DNA of 64,000 nucleotides from Synechococcaceae cyanobacterium SM2_3_1 (lineage in GTDB: Bacteria > Cyanobacteriota > Cyanobacteriia > Thermostichales > Thermostichaceae), in contig JAAUUJ010000004.1 of the NCBI GenBank assembly GCA_012030715.1, positions 1-64,000 of the forward strand, read 5' to 3'. This document shows positions 6,353 through 23,794 of this stretch, one piece after another. The notes beneath the pieces are model-generated. The model had not been told where the DNA came from. It ran no database searches and saw only the letters and a program-made list of their open reading frames with translations. The position numbers and the translations under genes were made by a program. The first letter of the stretch is position 1. Each line of letters begins with the position of its first letter.

Positions 6353-8125
6353 GTGAACAGCTACGACCTCACGGGGAGTGAGCGACTTCCTCCCCAAAAT
6401 ATTGAAGCTGAAGAGGAGATCATCGGAGGACTGCTCCTGGATCCGGATGCGATAACTCGTGTGTCTGAATTGTTGCAACCCGATGCGTTTTACATCTCCG
6501 CTCATCGGGAGATTTATCGTGCTGCTCTGCATCTCAATAGCCAGGGTCGACCCACGGATCTAATGACCGTCTCCGCCTGGCTGGATGACCATCAACTCCT
6601 GGAAAAAGTAGGGGGAACGACTGCCATCCGGCGGTTGCTGGAGCAAACGGTCAGTAGTGTCAACATTGATCAGTACGCCAAACTGGTCCTGGAAAAGTAC
6701 ATCCGGCGGCGCTTACTTCAGTCCACCAATTCCATTGCTCGCCTGGCCTATGACGCTAGCCAACCTCTGCCCCAGATTATGGATCAGGCGGAGCAGGAGA
6801 TCTTTAATATCACCCAGGAACGGATCCAGCGCTCCCTGATGCCCGCGTCCGAAATCCTGATCAATATCTTTTCGGATCTGGAAGAGAAATTTCAGCAGGG
6901 CTCCGATCTGCCAGGCATTCCCACCAAGTTTATTGATCTAGATAACCTCACCCAGGGGCTGCAGCGCTCCGATTTATTGATCGTGGCGGGTCGTCCGGCC
7001 ATGGGAAAAACCAGCTTTGCTCTCAACATAGCTCGCAATATTGCCACCTATGCCAAGCTTCCCGTAGCGGTGTTTAGCCTGGAAATGTCCAGAGAACAAT
7101 TGGTGCAGCGGATGCTTGCCAGTGAAGCCCGCATCGAAAGCACGCGCCTGCGTTCGGGCCGGATCAGCGGAGATGAATGGCAGCGACTCAGTCAGGCCTT
7201 CGGTTATCTGGCGCAGGTGCCCCTCTACATTGATGACACTCCCAATTGCAATGTGACGGAGATCCGCTCTAAGGCACGGCGACTGCAGGTCGAAACGGGT
7301 GGGGTGCTGGGACTCGTCCTGATTGATTATCTGCAGCTGATGCAGGGGACCGCTCCGGACAACCGGGTGCAGGAGTTGTCGCGAATGACGCGCGGTCTGA
7401 AGGGATTGGCCAAAGAACTATCCACCCCTGTGATGGTGCTCTCTCAGCTGAGCCGGGCCGTCGAGTCTCGATCTGATAAACGCCCACAATTGGCAGATCT
7501 GCGGGAATCCGGTTGCCTATCAGGGAGCACAGTGCTGCTGGATGTGGATTCTGGTCAGGTCTGGACCCTGGCACAACTGGCGGAACTGAAGGAAGGGACA
7601 GCCATGCCTCGGCTTCTGAGCATGAATACCCGAGGTCGGCTAGTTCCTCAGCAACCGGTAAAAGTCTTCCAGAACGGCTGTAAAATCACCTATCAGCTGA
7701 AAACCCGCTTAAATTGCTCGATTGAGGCCACCTCCAACCATCCCTTTTTCACGCGGCAGGGATGGAAACATTTAGATGATCTGCAGTTGGATGAAGAGAT
7801 CGCCCTGGCTATGCACGACGAAATTGTCTGGGATCCGATTTGCTCTATCAGTGAACCCTCGGAAGCGATCCCCGTCTACGATGTGGAGATGCCACGACAC
7901 CATAACTTTGTGGCCAACCGCATTCTGGTTCATAACAGCATTGAGCAGGATGCCGACATTGTTATCATGCTCTATCGCCCCGAATACTACCAGCCGGACA
8001 CCACGGAGCGAGGGATTGCCGAGGTGATCATCTCCAAGCACCGCAACGGCCCCACGGGAACCGTCAAACTGTTATTTGAAAGTCAATTCACCCAGTTTCG
8101 CAATCTGGCGGATCCGAACCGTTGA
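6353..8125 (+). CDS. dnaB: Replicative DNA helicase DnaB, intein-containing
   Basis: GTG start; PPQNIEAEEEIIGGLLLDPDAI, Walker A GRPAMGKTSFALN, LRESG/SIEQDADIVIMLYRPEYY split by an intein. Confidence 0.97.
   Translation: MNSYDLTGSERLPPQNIEAEEEIIGGLLLDPDAITRVSELLQPDAFYISAHREIYRAALHLNSQGRPTDLMTVSAWLDDHQLLEKVGGTTAIRRLLEQTVSSVNIDQYAKLVLEKYIRRRLLQSTNSIARLAYDASQPLPQIMDQAEQEIFNITQERIQRSLMPASEILINIFSDLEEKFQQGSDLPGIPTKFIDLDNLTQGLQRSDLLIVAGRPAMGKTSFALNIARNIATYAKLPVAVFSLEMSREQLVQRMLASEARIESTRLRSGRISGDEWQRLSQAFGYLAQVPLYIDDTPNCNVTEIRSKARRLQVETGGVLGLVLIDYLQLMQGTAPDNRVQELSRMTRGLKGLAKELSTPVMVLSQLSRAVESRSDKRPQLADLRESGCLSGSTVLLDVDSGQVWTLAQLAELKEGTAMPRLLSMNTRGRLVPQQPVKVFQNGCKITYQLKTRLNCSIEATSNHPFFTRQGWKHLDDLQLDEEIALAMHDEIVWDPICSISEPSEAIPVYDVEMPRHHNFVANRILVHNSIEQDADIVIMLYRPEYYQPDTTERGIAEVIISKHRNGPTGTVKLLFESQFTQFRNLADPNR
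7514..7936 (+). other. DnaB mini-intein (141 aa, no homing endonuclease domain)
   Basis: Inserted between RESG and SIEQD: begins CLSGSTVLLD, block-B TSNHPFF, ends VANRILVHN followed by Ser+1. Confidence 0.95.
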
Positions 8126-10885: not shown

Positions 10886-12048
10886 TCAGCGCCCCATACC
10901 TAAACTCTGGGCCTTCTGGTAAACCTTCCCCTCCGTCAGCAACGAAGGAGCGATCACCACCTCCACCTGTTGCAGTTCCTGGATTGTCCCAACCCCCAGG
11001 GTGCTCATACAGGTCTGGATCGCCCCTAAGAGGTTGTGGGTGCCATCATCGAGGCGCGCCGGGCCCCGCAGAATCTCGGTTAACGTTCCAGTCGATCCCA
11101 CGCGGATCCGGGTGCCTCGGGGAAGTAGAGGACTGGGGGTGGCCATGCCCCAATGAAATCCCCGTCCGGGGGCTTCTGCTGCTCGCGCAATCGGCGAACC
11201 GATCATCACCGCATCGGCCCCACAGGCCAGGGCTTTGCAGATATCCCCCCCTGTGATCAGACCGCCATCGGCAATAACGGGAACATAGCGTCCGGTTTCC
11301 GTAAAAATTGTTGCCGTGCCGCCGCACAGTCCGCCACTGCCGTAGCCTGAGGAACCCCGATCCCCAGCACCCCTCTAGAGGTACAGGCAGCCCCCGGCCC
11401 GATGCCCACCAGCACCGCCGCGGCTCCCGCATGCATCAGCTGCAAACTGACCTCGTAGGTGACACAGTTCCCCACCATGACCGGAATCGGCATCGACTGA
11501 CAGAACTCCGCCAGATGCAGAGGATTAATCCCCTCCGGGGCCTGATGTCGCACCGAGACCACCGTGGCCTGCACCACAAAGACATCTCCCCCCGCTTCCG
11601 CCACCAGTGGACCATACGTGGCAGCATTGACAGGCGTAGAACTGGCGACCGCGATCCCCCCCTGAGCTTTGATCTCGCGGATGCGAGCCTGGATCAGCTC
11701 CGGCTTGACAGGTTCCGTATACAGATGCTGCATCAGGGGGACAAACTCTTCTTTGCCCACCGTGGCAATCTTCTCCAGCACCTGATCCGGTTCCGCGTAG
11801 CGGGTTTGCAAGCCCTCCAGATTCAAGACCCCCATCGCCCCCAACTGGGAGAGCTGCACCGCCATCGCCACATCCACCACTCCATCCATGGCACTGGCAA
11901 TGATCGGGATCTCACGTTCGAGACTGCCCAGGGTCCAGTAGGTATCCACCAGTCTGGGATCAATAGTGCGACCGGAGGGCGAGAGGGCAATTTCATCCAA
12001 CCCGTAGGCGCGCCGCACTGATCTGCCAATTCCTAACTGTATTTCCAC
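10886..12048 (-). CDS. GuaB3-family IMP dehydrogenase-like protein (frameshifted)
   Basis: ORFs 11257-12048 and 10886-11209. Adding a T to the T5 run near 11305 (minus strand) gives ...[59 protein letters not shown]. Confidence 0.88.
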
Positions 12049-12200: not shown

Positions 12201-13385
12201 ATGTCTGCCCCCGCACCTGCTGTTGCATCTTCTGGTTTTCCCTGGCGGATTCATACCCCAGCCTTACTGGTACTTGCTGATGGCACCGCCTATCGGGGAT
12301 GGTCGTTTGGAGCCGAAGGTACCACCTATGGGGAAGTGGTGTTTAACACCGGCATGACGGGATACCAGGAAGTGATCACGGATCCCAGCTACCGAAGGCA
12401 GTTGATTACCTTCACCTGTCCGGAGTTGGGCAATACCGGAGTCAATGATCTTGATACCGAATCGGCTCGCCCTCAGGCTGGAGGGGTGATCGCCCGCAAC
12501 GTTACCAGGCAGTACAGTTCCTGGCGGGGACAGGCAAGTTTAAGTGAATACCTCAAAGATCATGGTGTGGTCGCGATCGCTGGCGTAGACACCCGAGCCT
12601 TAACCCGACAGCTGCGGGAACAGGGGGCCATGAACGGGGCAATTTCCACCGAGATTCTGGAGATTGATCGCTTGCTGGCGCAGGTGCAGGCACAACCCTC
12701 AATGCAGGGGCTGAGTTTGGTCAAGGATGTCACCACTGCGGAACCCTATGAATGGATCGAGTCCACCCCGAGTGAATGGGATTACGGTCCTGAAGCTCCG
12801 GTGATTGATCCGCCGTTGCGAGTGGTGGCCCTGGATTTTGGCATGAAGCGAAATATTCTCCGCCGCCTTAGCCGCTATGGCTGCCAGATCATGGTTTTAC
12901 CCGCCAGTGCTACCGCCGAAACGATCCTCAGCTATAAGCCGGAAGGGATCTTTCTTTCCAATGGTCCTGGGGATCCGGCCACTGAGGTACAAGCTGTTGC
13001 CACCGCCAAAGCTCTGCTCGAGCAGGCAAAACCCATGTTTGGCATTTGTTTGGGACACCAGATCCTGACACTCGCTTTGGGCAGTGATACCTATAAACTC
13101 AAATTTGGTCACCGGGGCCTCAATCATCCCTGTGGATTGCAACAGCGGATCGAGATCACCAGCCAGAATCACGGTTTTGCAGTTTTAGAAGCCTCGATTA
13201 CCTCTCCAGATCTGGAGATCAGCCACCTCAATTTAAATGACCGCACCGTTGCTGGGATCCGTCACCGCAGTCTGCCGCTGTTTTCAGTTCAATATCATCC
13301 TGAAGCCAGCCCAGGACCCCATGATGCCGATTATCTTTTCTCTGAATTTGTGCAAATGATGCTGGATCGTCGGCAGCGATTATAA
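12201..13385 (+). CDS. carA: Carbamoyl-phosphate synthase small subunit
   Basis: [44 protein letters not shown]; GATase core [27 protein letters not shown]. Confidence 0.97.
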
Positions 13386-13589
13386 AGGCAAATAAAGCAC
13401 AATTCCCTTCGATTCTGACTGCTCACTACCTTCAATATGGAGTACCAACTGATCAATCGCTTGTGTAATTGGCATCCGATCGTTAATCACAAAAATTTCT
13501 GCCAGGGGTAGAGATCTGGCTGTGACCCAGGTTTCCGGAGAGATGTGACGCCTCTCACAGAGTTCGATCTCAGATCCATCTATTCTCAA
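13380..13589 (-). CDS. Hypothetical protein (69 aa)
   Basis: Short ORF convergent with carA, overlapping its stop by 6 nt. Confidence 0.35.
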
Positions 13590-13624
13590 CTCACGGGCTC
13601 ATAGCCTTATGTCACCCATTGCCT

Positions 13625-13653
13625 AGGGATCCAGTTTCACGTTCTGGATCCCT
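13625..13653. terminator. Perfect hairpin between carA and the FMN reductase gene
   Basis: AGGGATCCAG-tttcacgtt-CTGGATCCCT, 10-bp perfect stem. Confidence 0.45.
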
Positions 13654-13778
13654 TTATTATAGATTTCCAGGTCCTTCAAGACATAAGACCCATATTCATC
13701 TACCCTTGCACGGGTTGTAACGGAAGTTGAGACGACTACGATTATAGGGTCAGGACTATAAGGGTTAGGAGAATTCTA

Positions 13779-14426
13779 GTGATGACTGAAACCCAGGTGA
13801 AGAGCCCCTCACAAAATCGATGGTGGCCCCAAACAGGAGAGCCTGATGCAGTCAAGATCGTGGGTATTGGGGGAAGCCTCAGAGAAAACTCGCATTCTTA
13901 TCGAGCATTGGAATTAGCGATTGAACGGGTAGCCAAACTAGGGGCAGCGGTTCAGATCCTGGATCTGCGACAAATGACTTTACCCTTCTGCCAGGGATCG
14001 GGGGATTATGAAGATTATCCAGATGTCGCCCGCCTGCGGGAAACGGTGAAAGCTGCAGATGGCTTGATCCTGGCAACCCCCGAATATCATGGCAGCGTCA
14101 GCGGTGTCTTGAAAAACGCTCTCGATCTGATGAGCTTTGAACATCTAGAGGGAAAGGTGGTTGGTGCCATCAGCGTCCTGGGGGGCAAGAGTAACAGCAA
14201 TGCTCTCAATGATTTGCGCTTGATCAGCCGTTGGGTCCATGCCTGGGTAATCCCTGAGCAAATAGCGATCGGTCAGGCTTGGCAGGCATTTAATGATCAG
14301 GGGCAGATCCAGGAGGAAAAACTAAGGAAACGTTTCGATACTTTTGCCCATAGTCTGGTAGAAAACACCTGCAAATTGAGAGGGTTAACCCTTCCCAGCA
14401 GGTTTAAGCGCAGTCCAACAACTTAG
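13779..14426 (+). CDS. NADPH-dependent FMN reductase family protein
   Basis: VKIVGIGGSLRENSHSYRALELAIERV...ATPEYHGSVSGVLKNALD. Confidence 0.88.
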   Translation: MMTETQVKSPSQNRWWPQTGEPDAVKIVGIGGSLRENSHSYRALELAIERVAKLGAAVQILDLRQMTLPFCQGSGDYEDYPDVARLRETVKAADGLILATPEYHGSVSGVLKNALDLMSFEHLEGKVVGAISVLGGKSNSNALNDLRLISRWVHAWVIPEQIAIGQAWQAFNDQGQIQEEKLRKRFDTFAHSLVENTCKLRGLTLPSRFKRSPTT

Positions 14427-14576
14427 GGATCTACTCCATCCTCCGAGAGGGTCTCCTCAGGGTTTGAAGTCTGATCATAGGTGGCATGGATGGTGGTATT
14501 CCCCACAGCAGGTTCGTAATGCTTTTGCCAGATCTGCAGGTACTCCCCATTGGCAAAAAATGCCTTCAAGACTCAC
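14423..14576 (-). CDS. Unlisted short ORF (about 50 aa after one-base correction), possibly a gene remnant
   Basis: Minus strand from GTG at 14576: MSLEGIFANGEYLQIWQKHYEPAVGNTTIHATYDQTSNPEETLSEDGVDP*, open if T6 is read as T5. Confidence 0.4.
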
Positions 14577-14596
14577 CTCACCGAGATAGATGGACT

Positions 14597-14638
14597 GTAT
14601 CTACTGATACATTTTACGGGTAGTAGCTGCCATATTGT
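14597..14638 (+). promoter_or_regulatory. NtcA-activated promoter
   Basis: GTA-TCTACTGA-TAC (14597-14610), 22-nt spacer, then TATTGT (14633-14638, fits TAN3T); 81 nt upstream of the start at 14720. Confidence 0.75.
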
Positions 14639-14719
14639 ACCAAGCAAGTTCTAGTCAGGCTGCTCGTTTCTAATGCTGTCTGCACTGCAGTGGTTCCCCA
14701 TTGTTGAGGAGTTATATCC

Positions 14720-15871
14720 GTGCCATCAAAGTCGTTTCTGCGCTACACACGGCGTCACGTTATTCAAGGAATTGTAGTCTCTGTCGCGGTGGGGGCCGCT
14801 GCAAAGCTCTCAGGCCGTCGCGCCCAGGCAGCGGATCAGCTCAAAATTGGTTTTATCTATGTAGGCCCTAAGGATGACTTTGGCTACAACCAGGCCCATG
14901 CAGAGGGAGCTGCCACCATTGGGGCATCAGACTCGGTGGAGATCGTTGAAGAGGCCAATGTTCCAGAGACGGCAGCAGTTCAGGAATCCATGCGCAGCAT
15001 GATCGAGCTGGATGGTATTTCAGTCCTTTTCCCCACCTCCTTTGGCTACTTTGATCCGCATATCCTCACCCTGGCGGCAGAGTTTCCCGAAGTTCAATTC
15101 TTCCATTGCGGGGGGCTATACCAGGAAGGCGTCACACCCGAGAACGTGGGTAGCTACTTTGGCTATATTGACGAAGCCCAATACATCGCTGGGATCGTGG
15201 CGGGTCACATGACGGGAAGTGGCAAGCTTGGCTTTATTGCAGCCAAACCCATCCCGCAGGTGCTGCGCAACATCAACAGCTTTACCCTAGCAGCCCGGAG
15301 TGTGAATCCAGCGATCACAACTCAGGTGATCTTTACAGGGGATTGGGCGCTACCTGTGAAAGAAGCTGAAGCAGCCAACAGCATGGCCGATCAAGGGATC
15401 GATATTATTACCTGTCATGTGGATAGCCCCAAAGTGGTGATGGAGACGGCAGAACGGCGCGGGATCTATTGCTCCGGCTACCATGCCAATCAAGCTCCTC
15501 TGGCTCCGAAAGGTTATCTCACTGGGGCAGAGTGGGATTGGAGCAACATCTACACCAACTACGTCACCATGCTGGCGGAAGGGAAAACCCTGATGAACGG
15601 TGGCATTCCTCATCTGGTGCGGGGGGGATTAAAGGAGAGCTTCTGTAAGATCTCTGCCTACGGATCTGCAGTTTCGGATGCAGCCAAAGCAGCCGCTGAC
15701 ACCACAGTAGAAGCGTTCCTGAGTGATGCAAGTCTCACCATCTACCAGGGAGAGTTGAAAGATAACGAGGGCAATGTGGTTATCCCCAGTGGGACCGCTC
15801 TGGCCCAGCAAGATCCCACCCTGGAGCAAATGAACTATCTCGTGGAAGGGGTGGTAGGTAGCCTCAGTTAA
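14720..15871 (+). CDS. BMP/basic membrane lipoprotein-type ABC transporter substrate-binding protein, probable Tat signal
   Basis: RRHVIQG near N-terminus; LKIGFIYVGPKDDFGYNQAHAEGA...FPTSFGYFDPHILTLAAEFPEVQFFHCGG, typical of PF02608. Confidence 0.92.
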   Translation: MPSKSFLRYTRRHVIQGIVVSVAVGAAAKLSGRRAQAADQLKIGFIYVGPKDDFGYNQAHAEGAATIGASDSVEIVEEANVPETAAVQESMRSMIELDGISVLFPTSFGYFDPHILTLAAEFPEVQFFHCGGLYQEGVTPENVGSYFGYIDEAQYIAGIVAGHMTGSGKLGFIAAKPIPQVLRNINSFTLAARSVNPAITTQVIFTGDWALPVKEAEAANSMADQGIDIITCHVDSPKVVMETAERRGIYCSGYHANQAPLAPKGYLTGAEWDWSNIYTNYVTMLAEGKTLMNGGIPHLVRGGLKESFCKISAYGSAVSDAAKAAADTTVEAFLSDASLTIYQGELKDNEGNVVIPSGTALAQQDPTLEQMNYLVEGVVGSLS

Positions 15872-15901
15872 AGTAACCCAAAGGTAAGCGGCAGGACAGG
15901 G

Positions 15902-16996
15902 ATGATCGGTCAAAGTTGGCGCAAGAATGCAGAGTCCATCTGTTTGCCCTGTGGAGCAGTCTTATTGGCTCTGGTGTTGTTTGGTGTCTTCTGTGCTCTG
16001 GCAGGTGCCAATCCTTTTGGGGTGTATCACTCCATTTTTCGAGCGGCATTTGGCAGTCCCAGCCGGATTCAAGGCACCCTGATTCTGGCGGCTCCTCTGA
16101 TGTTGACCGCATTGTGCACAGCGCTTCCCTTCAAGCTAGGTCTGGTAGTGATCGGCAATGAAGGTGCCCTGGTCATGGGTGGGCTGGGGGCTGTGATCGC
16201 TGGATTGGCTCTGGAAAGCTGGCCTCCTGCCCTTGTGCTGCTGGCGATGGCAATCAATAGCATCCTCTTTGGGGGGATCTGGATCGGGCTGGTGGGTTTC
16301 CTGCGGCATTACCGGGGGTGAATGAAACGATCAGCAGCCTGCTGATGAACTTTATTGCCATTGCCCTTCTCAGCCATCTGGTGGAGGGGCCGATGCGGGA
16401 TCCCAGCTCCCTGAATAAACCCTCCAGCTTTCCAATCATTGATGCCAATCGCCTGGGTGCAATTCCAGGAACGCGGGTGCATTATGGCCTGATCTTGGGT
16501 CTGCTGGCCTGTCTACTGGCCTATATCCTGATTCAGCGCACCCCCTTTGGATTCGCAGCACGGGTGGCCGGAGGAAATATCCGGGCGGCCAGAGTCGCAG
16601 GTCTGCCGGTGGGTCAGCTCACCCTTGCCATCTGCTTCCTGGCGGGGGCCTGTGCAGGACTGGCGGGCATGGTGGAAGTGGCGGCGATCCATGGGGTGGC
16701 CAACCAATCTCTGAACGCCAACTATGGCTATAGCGGCATTTTGGTGGCCTTTATTGCCCGTAGCAATGCCCTGGCGGTGACTCTGGTCTCCTTTTTGTTG
16801 GGGGGGGATTCTGGCCAGTGGTGGGATCCTGCAGCGATCTCATGAGCTCCCGGATGCCACGGTGCTGGTGTTCCAGGGACTGGTGTTTCTGGTGGTGCTC
16901 TACAGCGAATCCCTCTACGGTAAATTGGTCCTGTTTAAAGAGCCCGAGATGCCTGTTACCTCTGCGCAAGTGCAGGGAGGGGCAGTAGCCCAGTAG
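15902..16996 (+). CDS. BMP-associated ABC transporter permease 1 (YufP-like; two frameshifts)
   Basis: Fragments 15902-16321 and 16318-16845. G5 near 16315 should be G6 (FLRHYRGVNETISSLLMNFIAIAL); G8 at 16800-16807 should be G7 (FLLGGILASGGILQRSHELPDATVLVFQGLVFLVVLYSE), running to the stop at 16996. Confidence 0.88.
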
Positions 16997-17032
16997 TTGA
17001 AGTCGGATCTAGAAGAGTGGGAGGACAGTTCG

Positions 17033-17977
17033 ATGGCGGCAGAAGCACTGGGCTGGTGGGGGATCCCCATCGGCATCTTGGGAGGAGCCCTGCGGGGGAG
17101 TGCCCCGTTTCTGTTTGTCAGTCTGGGGGAATGCCTGACCGAAAAAAGCGGCAAGATCAACCTGGGGTTGGAGGGGACACTGCTGACCGGGGCCATGAGT
17201 GCCTATGCCATCTCCTACTATTTGCGGGATTACCCCCTTGTAGGGCCCTGGGTCGGGGTGCTAGTGGCTGGATTGGCGGGGGGCTTGCTGGGGTGTATTC
17301 ACAGCTGGCTGGCTCAGCAACCCAAGGTGAATGATGTGGCGGTGGGGATCGCCATGATCATCTTTGGCAGTGGCATTGCCTTTTTCTTTGGCAAACCCTT
17401 CATTCAACCTCCCGCGCCCCAGTTACCCACCCTTCCCTTTGGAGCCTGGAGTTCCCTGCCACAGGTGCAGTCTGCCTTAGCCATCAGTCCTCTGTTTCTG
17501 ATCGGGGTGTTACTGACCCCCTTACTGGCCTGGTTCTTTCGATCCACTCGCTGGGGGTTATTCGTCAGAGCTGTAGGAGACAGTCCAGAAGCCGCCCGAG
17601 CCATGGGGGTGTCAATCCAGGAGGTGCGTACCTACGCCATCATCATTGGCAGCGTCCTGGCAGGGATCGGGGGGGCCTATCTGTCGCTGGTCTATCCCGG
17701 CAGCTGGAATGAGCGAATCTCCAGTGGTCAGGGGCTGATGGCGGTGGCCCTGGTGATCTTTGCCCGCTGGAATCCAATTCACTGTCTTTACGCTGCGCTT
17801 CTGTTTGGGGGAGCCCAGGCAATTGGTCCGGCCCTGCAGTCGGTGGGGGTGGACTCCTATTATTACCTCTGGAATGCGTCCCCCTACTTTCTCACCCTCG
17901 GGATCATGATCCTGACCTGTTCACCCAAACAAACCCTGGTGGGGGCTCCGGGAGCGCTGGGGAAACCCTCTGCCTGA
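17033..17977 (+). CDS. BMP-associated ABC transporter permease 2 (YufQ-like)
   Basis: GGALRGSAPFLFVSLGECLTEKSGKINLGLEGTLLTGAM. Confidence 0.9.
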   Translation: MAAEALGWWGIPIGILGGALRGSAPFLFVSLGECLTEKSGKINLGLEGTLLTGAMSAYAISYYLRDYPLVGPWVGVLVAGLAGGLLGCIHSWLAQQPKVNDVAVGIAMIIFGSGIAFFFGKPFIQPPAPQLPTLPFGAWSSLPQVQSALAISPLFLIGVLLTPLLAWFFRSTRWGLFVRAVGDSPEAARAMGVSIQEVRTYAIIIGSVLAGIGGAYLSLVYPGSWNERISSGQGLMAVALVIFARWNPIHCLYAALLFGGAQAIGPALQSVGVDSYYYLWNASPYFLTLGIMILTCSPKQTLVGAPGALGKPSA

Positions 17978-18013
17978 AGATTTTTTGCCTATTCTCGTAA
18001 GGAGTAAGCGACC

Positions 18014-19099
18014 ATGAGCGGACTTGGCGGTTTGAATAAATCCCCTCAGGGGGTGGTGATGGGCATGGTGCAATTGCAGTTACCGAATGTGGTGACCCCT
18101 GATGATCTGACAGCCCAGCGGGAGCGGATTGTCGAGATGGTGGCCAAGGCCCGCCGCAACATGCCCACAATGGATCTGGTGGTGTTCCCCGAGTACGCTC
18201 TGCATGGTCTTTCCATGGACACCAATCCTGAGATCATGTGCCATCTGGATGGTCCTGAGGTGGCTGCTTTTCAAATCGCCTGCCGGGAGAACCACATCTG
18301 GGGCTGTTTCTCGATCATGGAGTTCAACCCCAAAGGCAACGCCTACAACAGTGGCATCATCATTGATGATCAGGGGGAACTAAAGCTTTATTACCGCAAG
18401 CTGCACCCCTGGGTGCCTGTGGAACCCTGGGAACCAGGCAACATTGGCATCCCGGTGTGTGAAGGACCCAACGGCTCCACCCTGGCCCTGATCATCTGTC
18501 ACGACGGCATGTTCCCGGAAATGGCGCGCGAATGTGCCTACAAGGGGGCCGAGATCATGATCCGTACCGCAGGCTACACCGCCCCGATCCGTCATGCCTG
18601 GAAGATCACCAACCAGGCCAATGCCTTCTGTAACCTGATGGTGACGGCTTCCGTGTGTATGTGCGGCAGTGACGGCACCTTTGACTCGATGGGTGAGGGA
18701 ATGTTTGTTAACTTTGACGGCACCCCTCTGGTGGAAGGTAGTCACCGACCGGATGAGATCATCACCGCAGAAGTGCGCCCTGATCTGGTGCGAGAGGCGC
18801 GCAAGTACTGGTCAGTGGAGAACAACATCTACCAATTCGGCCACCGTGGCTTTACCGCTGTCAAGGGAGGCGCTCAAGACTGTCCCTACACCTACATGAA
18901 GGATCTGGTGAATGGCAACTACCGTCTTCCCTGGGAGGCTGAGGTTATCTACACCGACGGCACCTCCTGTGGCTTTGATCCCCCTAGCCGTTCCTATCAG
19001 GAGAAGAGATCCTGTCCCCAGAAAGAATCTCTAGTCTGGCGGGAGCCTGATTATGGCAGGTATCCACATTCAATCTTCACCCTATCCCTACCCCTATAA
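18014..19099 (+). CDS. Formamidase / aliphatic amidase family (AmiF-like nitrilase superfamily)
   Basis: [16 protein letters not shown]...[10 protein letters not shown] (catalytic Glu), YYRKLHPW (Lys), [28 protein letters not shown] (Cys). True end may be 19050 if the tail is frameshifted. Confidence 0.88.
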
Positions 19100-19736
19100 C
19101 CGTGATCTGCGACCTGAAAACACCGCCCTGATCATCATTGATATGCAGACCGACTTCTGTGGTGAGGGGGGGTATGTGGACAAGATGGGCTATGACCTTT
19201 CTCTCACCCGTGCTCCGATTGAACCGATCCAGCGGGTCCTTGCAGCGATGCGAGCCAAGGGATACCCCATTCTGCACACCCGCGAAGGTCACCGCCCCGA
19301 TCTTTCGGATCTGCCTGCCAATAAACGCTGGCGTTCCCAGCACATTGGAGCTGGTATTGGCGAACCCGGTCCCTGTGGCCGGATCCTCGTGCGGGGGGAA
19401 CCGGGATGGGAGATCATTCCCGAACTGGCTCCTTTACCAGGGGAACCGATCATCGACAAGCCGGGTAAGGGATCCTTTTACGCCACAGATCTGGATCTGA
19501 TTCTGTCGCGATGGGGGATTCAAAATCTGATTCTGACCGGAATCACCACTGATGTCTGTGTGCATACCACCATGCGAGATGCCAATGATCGGGGGTATGA
19601 GTGTCTGCTGCTTTCGGACTGTACGGGGGCAACAGATTATGGCAATTATCTGGCTGCTCTGAAAATGATCGAGATGCAGGGAGGCGTTTTTGGAGCGATA
19701 GCCCCTTCTGCGGCCCTACTGGAGGTGATCTCATGA
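19053..19736 (+). CDS. Isochorismatase-fold cysteine hydrolase, biuret hydrolase-like
   Basis: [78 protein letters not shown]...[14 protein letters not shown]...[32 protein letters not shown]; closely like Rhizobium BiuH as I remember it. Confidence 0.82.
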
Positions 19737-21289
19737 CAATGAAGGCTCCTGTAGAAACTGCAACCGATCTCAACAGTGCTCCCCCAGAACTGGAGGTGGT
19801 GAACCTGACCAAGATCTTTGGCTCAGTCAGGGCGCTGGATCATGTCTCAATGAGAGTTAAACCTGGAACATTTCATGGCCTATTGGGGGAAAACGGGGCA
19901 GGTAAAAGCACCCTGGTGAAATGTGTCATGGGATTCTACCAGCCCACCTCTGGCGATGTGATCATTGGCAAGCGATCGCGTGCAATCAAAAATCCTAAGG
20001 ATGCCCACCACTTTGGCATTGGCATGGTCTATCAGCACTTTACCTCTGTGCCTGCCATGACGGTGGCTGAGAATCTGGTCCTGAGCCGCTACGACAGCCC
20101 TTTTCTAATTGATTGGCCGTCTGAGATCTCGGCATTAGAAGCCTTTATGGCAACTTCCCCCTTCCATGTGCCTCTGGATCTGCCCGTGGCTCAACTTGCC
20201 GCAGGCCAAAAACAGAAGTTAGAGATCCTGAAGCAACTCTATCTGAAAAGTCGCATCTTGATCCTGGATGAGCCCACCTCGGTGCTGACCCCTAAGGAGG
20301 CTGATGAAGTTCTGGGATTGCTGCGAGGGGAGGTGGAGGCAGGCAAGCTGAGTGTCCTTCTGATTACGCATAAATTCCGTGAGGTACAGTCATTTGTAGA
20401 TGAGGTAACCGTGCTGCGCAAAGGATCCCTGGCAGGACATGGTCAAATTGCCGATCTAACTATCTCTGACATGGCCACGATGATGCTGGGAGAAGCTCGT
20501 GAGCCTCAGAAGGTCACCAAGGTCAATCTGGAATCCACCGCACCTGTTTTGCAGATCCATGCCCTACAGGCCAATCAGGATAATGGTCTGCCCGCTGTCA
20601 AGGGAGTGGATCTAACGGTTAATGGGGGTGAGATTGTCGGAATCGCAGGCGTATCAGGAAATGGTCAGCGGGAACTGGTGGAAGTGCTGGCCGGGCAACG
20701 CTCACCTACGGGGGGAACGATCCATGTCAATGGCCAGCTTTACGGCGCCACTCGTAGCGAGATGCAAAAGCATAAAGTGTTCGCCTTACCCGAGGATCCC
20801 CTGCGCAATGCCTGTGTCCCCCACATGAGCGTGGCGGAAAATATGGCCCTCCGCACTTTTGATCGGCCTCCCCAGACTTGGTCCAGAGTGCTCTTAATCC
20901 TGAAGGCGATCCGGAATGCAGCTCAGACTCTGATTGCAACCTTCAATGTCAAGACCCCCACTCCCGAAACCGCTATTTCTCAGCTTTCTGGAGGCAATGT
21001 GCAGCGGGCAGTGCTGGCGCGGGAACTCTCCAATGAATCCATCAACCTCCTGATCGCAGCCAATCCCTGTTTTGGCCTGGATTTTAATGCGGTGGACTAT
21101 ATCCATGGGCAGATCTTGGCAGCTCGCAATCAGGGGGTGGCGGTCCTATTGGTGAGTGAAGATCTGGATGAGTTACTCACACTTGCGGATCGGATTGTGG
21201 TGATCAGCGCTGGGCAGTTTGCCTATGAAAGTCGAGTGGATACAGCTGATTTTGACATGATCGCTCGCAGTATGGCGGGGCATGCGTGA
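19733..21289 (+). CDS. ABC transporter ATP-binding protein, double-cassette sugar/nucleoside type
   Basis: ATG overlaps the hydrolase stop (ATGA). Two cassettes: [16 protein letters not shown] and [31 protein letters not shown]. Confidence 0.92.
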
Positions 21290-21323
21290 GAGGATCCTAA
21301 CTCTTTTCCAGAATGGGTGAAAT

Positions 21324-22003
21324 ATGCCTGTAATTCCGGCTCTGCCTTATGATTATGAGTTCCCTATGCAGGGGATTGCTCTGGTCGCGATCGATATGCA
21401 GCGAGACTTTATGGAACCCGGTGGATTTGGAGAATCTCTGGGCAATGATGTCAGTGTTCTACGCAGTGTGATTGATCCAGTACAGAAGTTATTCAAGGTA
21501 TTTCGAGATCAGCACCTCCCAATCATCCACACTCTAGAAGCTCATCAACCGGATCTTTCTGATTGCCCTACCTCTAAACTTAACCGGGGCAATAGTGATC
21601 TAAAAATCGGGAATGCCGGACCCATGGGGCGGATCTTGATCCAAGGGGAAATGGGTAACGCCATTATTCCTGAACTGGCACCCGAACCTAGTGAAATTGT
21701 GATCCATAAACCTGGGAAAGGGGCTTTCTACAATACTCTTTTGGAGAGCGAACTGAAGAAACGAGGGATCACCCATCTGATTTTACTGGAGTCACCACCG
21801 AAGTCTGTGTACAGTCCACAATGCGGGAGGCCAATGATCGGGGATATGAGTGCCTTCTGGTTGAGGAGGGAACTGCCAGCTATTTTCCAGAATTCAAGCA
21901 GGCCACCCTGGAGATGATCCGTGCTCAGGGGGGAATTGTGGGGTGGACAGCCCATGTTGAGGATGTTGTGAATGCATTTGAACCAGCGCGGGTCGAGGCT
22001 TAG
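21324..22003 (+). CDS. Second isochorismatase-fold cysteine hydrolase (frameshifted)
   Basis: [23 protein letters not shown]...; adding a base near 21783 joins [58 protein letters not shown] (catalytic Cys kept). Confidence 0.85.
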
Positions 22004-22011
22004 GACATTTA

Positions 22012-22411
22012 TTGATGGAAGAAACATTCCTCCTGGCAGTTAACGGCACCCTCATGCGAGGATTAGAACTGAACGCCAATATGATCTCTGCAGGTGCCAC
22101 CTTTGTCAGGGAAACAACCACCGATCCCGCCTACCGGCTATGGTCAGTTGAAGATCGCTATCCAGCGATGCAGCGGGTCAGTCTTGGGGGACAGGCGATT
22201 GCGCTGGAGATTTGGTCTGTGCCTGCAGCAGGGCTTGATTCAGATTCTGTTGCAAGAACCGTCTGGATTGACTATTGGCAAGGTGAAGCTAGCGGATGGA
22301 TCAGAAGTTCTCGGGGTTCTGGGTGAAGCGATCACCTGTGAGGGATGTAAAGAGATTACCTCCTGGAGTGGATGGCGCGCATATGCAGATAGTCAGATAA
22401 AGACTCAATGA
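22012..22411 (+). CDS. Stand-alone protein resembling allophanate hydrolase (AtzF/DUR1) C-terminal domain (frameshifted)
   Basis: LLAVNGTLMRGLELNANMISAGATFVRETTTDPAYRLWSVEDRYPAMQRVSLGGQAIALEIWSVPA + LLQEPSGLTIGKVKLADGSEVLGVLGEAITCEGCKEITSWSGWRAY; frame changes between about 22225 and 22260. Confidence 0.75.
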
Positions 22412-22426
22412 TTAACTAGCAGTGTG

Positions 22427-22452
22427 AAAACCTTAGAAGGATGAGAGGTTTT
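22427..22452 (+). terminator. Hairpin with T-tract, probable operon terminator
   Basis: AAAACCT-tagaaggatgag-AGGTTTT followed by T, 16 nt after the last gene of the cluster. Confidence 0.55.
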
Positions 22453-22630
22453 TATTCCCCGAGTTAGCAAAATAGTAACTCATTGGAGTGGTTAGTCATC
22501 GTGGTTTTTTTGTCAACTCACTGGACGCGAATCATAATCTCATGTATGGCAATCAGGCATGATTCATGAGATCTGCGAGGTTGTCCTGCTTGATAGATAG
22601 GGACTTGAGCCTGCTTGCGTCTTCCACCTG

Positions 22631-23794
22631 ATGTCTGATTGCTATATTGATCTCATCTATAGATCTGTGGAGGCTGGATTGAAAAGCGTAGGATTGGTTC
22701 TGGGAAGTGGTGGTGCTCGAGGGTGGGCACACATTGGTGTGATCCGAGCTTTAGAGGAAGCGAATATCCAAATTAGCCACATCACTGGGGCAAGTATTGG
22801 AGCCCTTGTAGGGGCAGTTTATGCCGCTGGCGAGTTAGATGATCTGGAAGAATTTATCCGCTCATTGGACTGGAAAGGAGTAGTTTCCTTTTTTGATGTA
22901 GTTTTTCCTAGTAGTGGCCTACTGGATGGCAACAGAGTTTATGAATTACTTTCTGAACATTTACATAGTATGAATATCGAAGATGCTGATCTCGAATTTT
23001 GCTGTGTTGCTACAGATCTGATCACTGGTCAAGAGGTGCGTCTCCAGGCTGGACCTATGGTAGATGCAGTCCGTGCCAGTATTTCTATTCCAGGAATATT
23101 TACCCCATTTGAGAGGGATGGAAGGTTCCTTGGAGATGGGGGAATTATTAATCCCCTCCCTGTTGATATCATGCAACAGATGGGAGCCGAAGTCATTATT
23201 GCTGTAAACCTTAACCATCACTCTTCTATGGAGTCAATTACAGAAACAGTGCAGGAATCTCTATCCTTATCTATAGAAGCGCCAGAAATGTCTAGCGGTC
23301 AGCAACAGGTCATATCTTCCCACCAGGAAACAAATATTGAAGCCCTAGCAGAAGCAGAAATATCTAGAACTCTTTGTAAGGAGAACACTGATTCTGAGGA
23401 TAAAGTTCAACATAAAGAGAGTACCCAAAAAACAAGTGTTTTAATTCAAGGCGAAACCACTAACCGTGTGAACATCAAATCACTAATTGACCGAATACAG
23501 CAGCGATACGAGCTTATTCAAGATCAAGTACAAGCGAAACTTGAGAACTGGATGCCAGAGAAAAAAACAGGAATGAATATTTTTGATGTGATTGGGGCTT
23601 CTCTTAATGTTATGGAGCAACAGGTAACCCAAAGTAAGCTCGATACTTGCCCTCCTGACATCTTAATTCAACCTATGCTTAGTCAATATGGTATTTTTGA
23701 CTTTCATTTAGCAGATGACATCATCCATGAAGGTTATCGCAGCATGAAAGATCTGATACCAGAGCTTAAGGAAAAGCTGTCAACCAAGCCATAG
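22631..23794 (+). CDS. Patatin-like phospholipase (RssA-type) with long C-terminal extension
   Basis: GLVLGSGGARGWAHIGVIRALEEANIQISHITGASIGALVGAVYA (G-x-S-x-G) and DGG motif. Confidence 0.9.
   Translation: MSDCYIDLIYRSVEAGLKSVGLVLGSGGARGWAHIGVIRALEEANIQISHITGASIGALVGAVYAAGELDDLEEFIRSLDWKGVVSFFDVVFPSSGLLDGNRVYELLSEHLHSMNIEDADLEFCCVATDLITGQEVRLQAGPMVDAVRASISIPGIFTPFERDGRFLGDGGIINPLPVDIMQQMGAEVIIAVNLNHHSSMESITETVQESLSLSIEAPEMSSGQQQVISSHQETNIEALAEAEISRTLCKENTDSEDKVQHKESTQKTSVLIQGETTNRVNIKSLIDRIQQRYELIQDQVQAKLENWMPEKKTGMNIFDVIGASLNVMEQQVTQSKLDTCPPDILIQPMLSQYGIFDFHLADDIIHEGYRSMKDLIPELKEKLSTKP

Follow-up and report, generated by a model that had tools for sequence, protein, structure and literature searches.

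A putative NtcA-activated promoter upstream of a predicted biuret/triuret operon in a cyanobacterial genome

Results

Organization of the operon

The window, i.e., the whole 64-kb stretch of DNA that was analysed, contains the following genes of an apparent operon:

14720..15871, +, BMP/PnrA-type solute-binding protein with a Tat-type leader (TRRHVIQG), the first gene (PF02608, 131 bits)
15902..16996, +, ABC permease A with two frameshifts (one continuous gene in relatives)
16997..17977, +, ABC permease B (BPD_transp_2; the limits are those of the ORF, and the gene may start further downstream)
18014..19099, +, formamidase of the nitrilase superfamily (NF009803, 568 bits against a cut-off of 406)
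19053..19736, +, biuret amidohydrolase BiuH (NF050097, 415.5 bits against a cut-off of 370; 6azo, E 3.6e-123)
19739..21289, +, ABC ATPase with two nucleotide-binding domains (the ORF opens at 19601; position conserved in relatives)
21324..22003, +, triuret-hydrolase (TrtA)-like cysteine hydrolase, frameshifted (similarity to TrtA structures)
22012..22411, +, stand-alone allophanate-hydrolase C-terminal domain (AH_C), frameshifted (PF21986 in both halves)

The original prediction described these genes as an amidohydrolase/ABC importer cluster. The importer and the hydrolases are indeed there; the set is not a generic one, however, but rather a predicted biuret/triuret operon. The nearest solved relatives of the solute-binding protein are 6pi5, an atrazine periplasmic binding protein, and 3s99. 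In BiuH, the family triad of Asp, Lys and Cys falls in aligned, conserved stretches. The N-terminal part of the TrtA-like protein scores 178 bits to 6xj4/6xix, which are structures of the triuret hydrolase TrtA (PMC7948467), as against 136 and 108 bits to BiuH. The small AH_C gene is also present in about 20 related loci, some of them outside the cyanobacteria. No protein in the genome matched full-length allophanate hydrolase, AtzF, above the cut-off, and amidase-type proteins are encoded elsewhere. Other loci of the genome encode urease as well as a pair of urea-importer proteins of the UrtA type. The operon's own gene set is found again both in cyanobacteria and in Verrucomicrobiota, Alphaproteobacteria and Nitrospira.

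Several of the operon's genes are interrupted. Permease A is frameshifted at two G runs, one near 16318 and the other near 16800, the TrtA-like gene near 21785, and the AH_C gene near 22236-22247. Elsewhere in the window, the IMP dehydrogenase gene (10886-12048, minus strand) also has a frameshift, near 11257. IMP dehydrogenase is normally essential. The operon might have decayed through these four frameshifts while its promoter stayed genuine, a situation compatible with activation by NtcA. Decay of the operon was judged unlikely because IMP dehydrogenase is split in the same manner. Further, the permease A breaks lie in homopolymers, the genome is a draft of 285 contigs, and the BMP protein, BiuH, the formamidase and the ATPase are intact and highly conserved. 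Given the split IMP dehydrogenase gene and the homopolymer breaks, we infer that assembly error is the likelier source of the four operon frameshifts. A separate observation in the window concerns the DnaB gene (6353-8125), in which a short in-frame intein-like insert is apparent (GCLSGSTVLLD...ILVHN).

Layout of the promoter region

Upstream of the first gene, the region contains the following elements:

14597..14610, +, NtcA box GTATCTACTGATAC (GTAN8TAC), read directly from the sequence: GTA arm at 14597-14599, inner N8 TCTACTGA, TAC arm at 14608-14610
14611..14632, +, 22-nt spacer, read from the sequence; 22 nt is the favoured spacing among orthologues
14633..14638, +, -10 box TATTGT (TAN3T), read directly from the sequence
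14644..14646, +, predicted transcription start (box centre + 41.5 nt), from canonical class II geometry (PMC3898017)
14706..14711, +, ribosome-binding site GAGGAG, 8 nt 5' of the GTG, read from the sequence

The layout originally described, GTAN8TAC, 22 nt, TATTGT and 81 nt to the first gene, is exact to the base, the 81 nt (14639-14719) separating TATTGT from the GTG start at 14720. With its flanks (14596-14611) the box also fits the extended palindrome TGTAN8TACA, and the 14-mer GTATCTACTGATAC is present as a single copy in the genome. A consensus scan of 14300-14760 found no sigma-70 -35/-10 pair; the missing -35 hexamer is expected under class II activation. No riboswitch or other RNA element reached the gathering threshold in 13300-22700. 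Directly upstream of the promoter is a small minus-strand ORF (14426-14566), possibly a gene remnant, for which no homologue was found among 29 relatives.

Frequency of the sequence pattern

The site at 14597-14638 is the one full match to GTAN8TAC-N20-24-TAN3T in the window. A Markov-2 model predicts 0.37 matches per window, both strands considered, for spacings of 20-24 nt, and 0.08 for a spacing of exactly 22 nt. A pattern search of the whole genome (4.44 Mb) gave 66 full matches at spacings of 20-24 nt, or about one per 64 kb, as against 168 for the pattern read backward. The forward pattern is thus not enriched genome-wide, and the string alone, being not rare, is weak as evidence. That frequency speaks for a chance string, with the operon driven by another promoter. 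Against this explanation, the chance that a sense-strand match falls in the 300 nt before a single chosen gene, computed as 66 / (2 x 4.44 Mb) x 300, is about 0.002, and the sigma-70 scan turned up no alternative promoter. The significance of the site rests on its conservation and on the genome's own known NtcA targets.

Conservation upstream of orthologues

Orthologues of the first gene were collected from 59 genomes and a named genome collection, oriented, and assigned start codons by a rule. Once entries with redundant upstream sequence had been removed, the set comprised 72 cyanobacterial and 23 other orthologues. GTAN8TAC was found at -160..-40 in 23 of the 72 cyanobacterial orthologues and in 1 of the 23 others. 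At the same position, boxes with spacers of 4-7 or 9-12 nt were found in 0-2 of the 72, and other palindromes in 0-7. Random 120-nt intervals drawn 400 times from the same loci contained 1.3 boxes on average and at most 7. Of the 30 sites at -260..-50, 12 have TAN3T exactly 22 nt after the box, and no site has it after 20, 21 or 23 nt. The arms of the box are invariant through the selection of the sites, and the eight inner bases vary; at the -10 position, the first and last T are prominent without having been selected for. When grouped at 80% protein identity, the 12 cases with the full layout form four clusters, one of them, a Pseudanabaena-like cluster, containing 8 cases. The box alone is present in 15 of 40 such clusters, so the signal is not confined to one clade.

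Not every cyanobacterial orthologue carries the site: an exact box is absent from the 260 nt upstream in 42 of the 72. One-mismatch boxes were found in 25 of these, only mildly above the 12-23 of the controls, and were therefore left out of the counts. Comparison of orthologous upstream regions, whose alignment was proposed originally as a check, bears out the enrichment of box and 22-nt spacing in cyanobacteria, and shows that more than half of the orthologues do without the exact box over these 260 nt. The expectation that the site would be kept in close relatives held in part. The same-family relatives L052 and L053 keep the box and have TTAAAT instead of TAN3T at 22 nt; a third, L046/L086, has an upstream region without the box. 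The lack of a box in L046/L086 is in keeping with a chance string, but the box, its 8-nt spacer and the 22-nt distance are all enriched upstream of orthologues, and we consider a chance origin improbable.

NtcA and its targets in the same genome

The genome encodes NtcA (TIGR03697, 384 bits against a cut-off of 245). The protein aligns closely over 208 residues with the solved NtcA structures 8h3v, 3la2 and 2xgx; its recognition region, STRVTITRLLGDLR, is nearly unchanged relative to these, and the DNA-reading helix is intact. Known NtcA targets of this genome have the same layout upstream: GTATCATTGGATAC-N22-TACCTT at urtA-1, GTATCAGCTGCTAC-N22-TAGGCT at urtA-2, GTAACAGATACTAC-N23-TAGGCT at ntcA and, with one mismatch, GTATCAGAAGGCAC-N22-TAGGAT at glnA. 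An exact box is also present upstream of glnB, where TAN3T is lacking at 20-24 nt. As a separate observation, a further full NtcA-type match occurs in this genome outside the window (G000:C200:6904-6945), and some 45 nt after it there is a second match to a BMP-family binding protein.

The site might be real and yet be read by another CRP-family regulator; the genome has three further, weaker matches to that family. Alternatively, NtcA might have a secondary or repressing role, with the main start elsewhere; NtcA represses where its box is downstream of the -35 (PMC3898017). The distance to the -10 box, however, is that of an activator and agrees with this genome's urtA, glnA and ntcA sites, and the restriction of the box to cyanobacteria fits NtcA. 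Together, a different reader or a different mode of action is considered improbable.

Discussion

The proposal that the site is a class II NtcA promoter is supported by the genome's own NtcA and its known targets, by the cyanobacterial enrichment of box and 22-nt spacing, and by the missing sigma-70 -35 site. On these sequence comparisons, 14597-14638 is very probably a canonical class II NtcA-activated promoter serving triuret/biuret scavenging under nitrogen limitation. NtcA binding, the start site, the nitrogen response and the transport substrate at this operon are predictions. Nitrogen limitation would raise 2-oxoglutarate, and 2-OG-bound NtcA would occupy GTATCTACTGATAC, the centre of which lies about 41.5 nt 5' of a start predicted near 14645. 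PipX would probably join 2-OG-bound NtcA, a role it has in the NtcA system generally. NtcA would replace the absent -35 element and bring RNA polymerase to TATTGT, and a single transcript would span the operon, if its genes are co-transcribed. The BMP-type ABC transporter may then take up small, nitrogen-rich ureides, probably triuret and biuret, from which nitrogen would be freed via the TrtA-like hydrolase, BiuH, the allophanate-hydrolase C-terminal domain and the formamidase.

We lean, by a modest degree, toward a broader proposal: that the cyanobacterial NtcA regulon widely includes this triuret/biuret (purine-waste ureide) operon, a cross-phylum gene set that came under nitrogen control in cyanobacteria when it gained an NtcA box, and in which AH_C functions as a separate protein. 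In the literature searched, the coverage of which was partial, no link between NtcA and the biuret/triuret gene set was found, which is weak evidence of novelty. The promoter mechanism is already known, and it is the target that appears to be undescribed in that literature. The result would add small ureides such as biuret and triuret to the nitrogen sources that cyanobacteria probably import when starved for nitrogen, and the operon is a candidate regulon member whose site is defined and can be tested.

The published canonical NtcA-activated promoters, those of urtA, nirA, glnA and ntcB, consist of GTAN8TAC, a 22-nt spacer and TAN3T, with no -35 (PMC3898017), in agreement with the original description of class II promoters. 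The site at 14597-14638 has this layout in common with them, and in both cases the promoter stands before a nitrogen-source operon; the difference is that the target here is a biuret/triuret-type operon. Formamidase offers a related theme: in Arthrospira, the formamidase FmdA is up under nitrogen limitation (PMC4509649). The Arthrospira gene is listed under COG2421 (PMC8400943), so FmdA probably belongs to another formamidase family than the nitrilase-type enzyme here. In nitrifiers and Herbaspirillum, triuret/biuret operons contain bmpA-nupABC, trtA, biuH and atzF (PMC12625717, PMC7948467). As here, those operons have a BMP-type ABC importer beside BiuH and a TrtA-like hydrolase. The present operon differs in that the place of full-length AtzF is taken by a formamidase of the nitrilase type together with AH_C as a stand-alone domain, and in its NtcA box, seen in cyanobacteria only.
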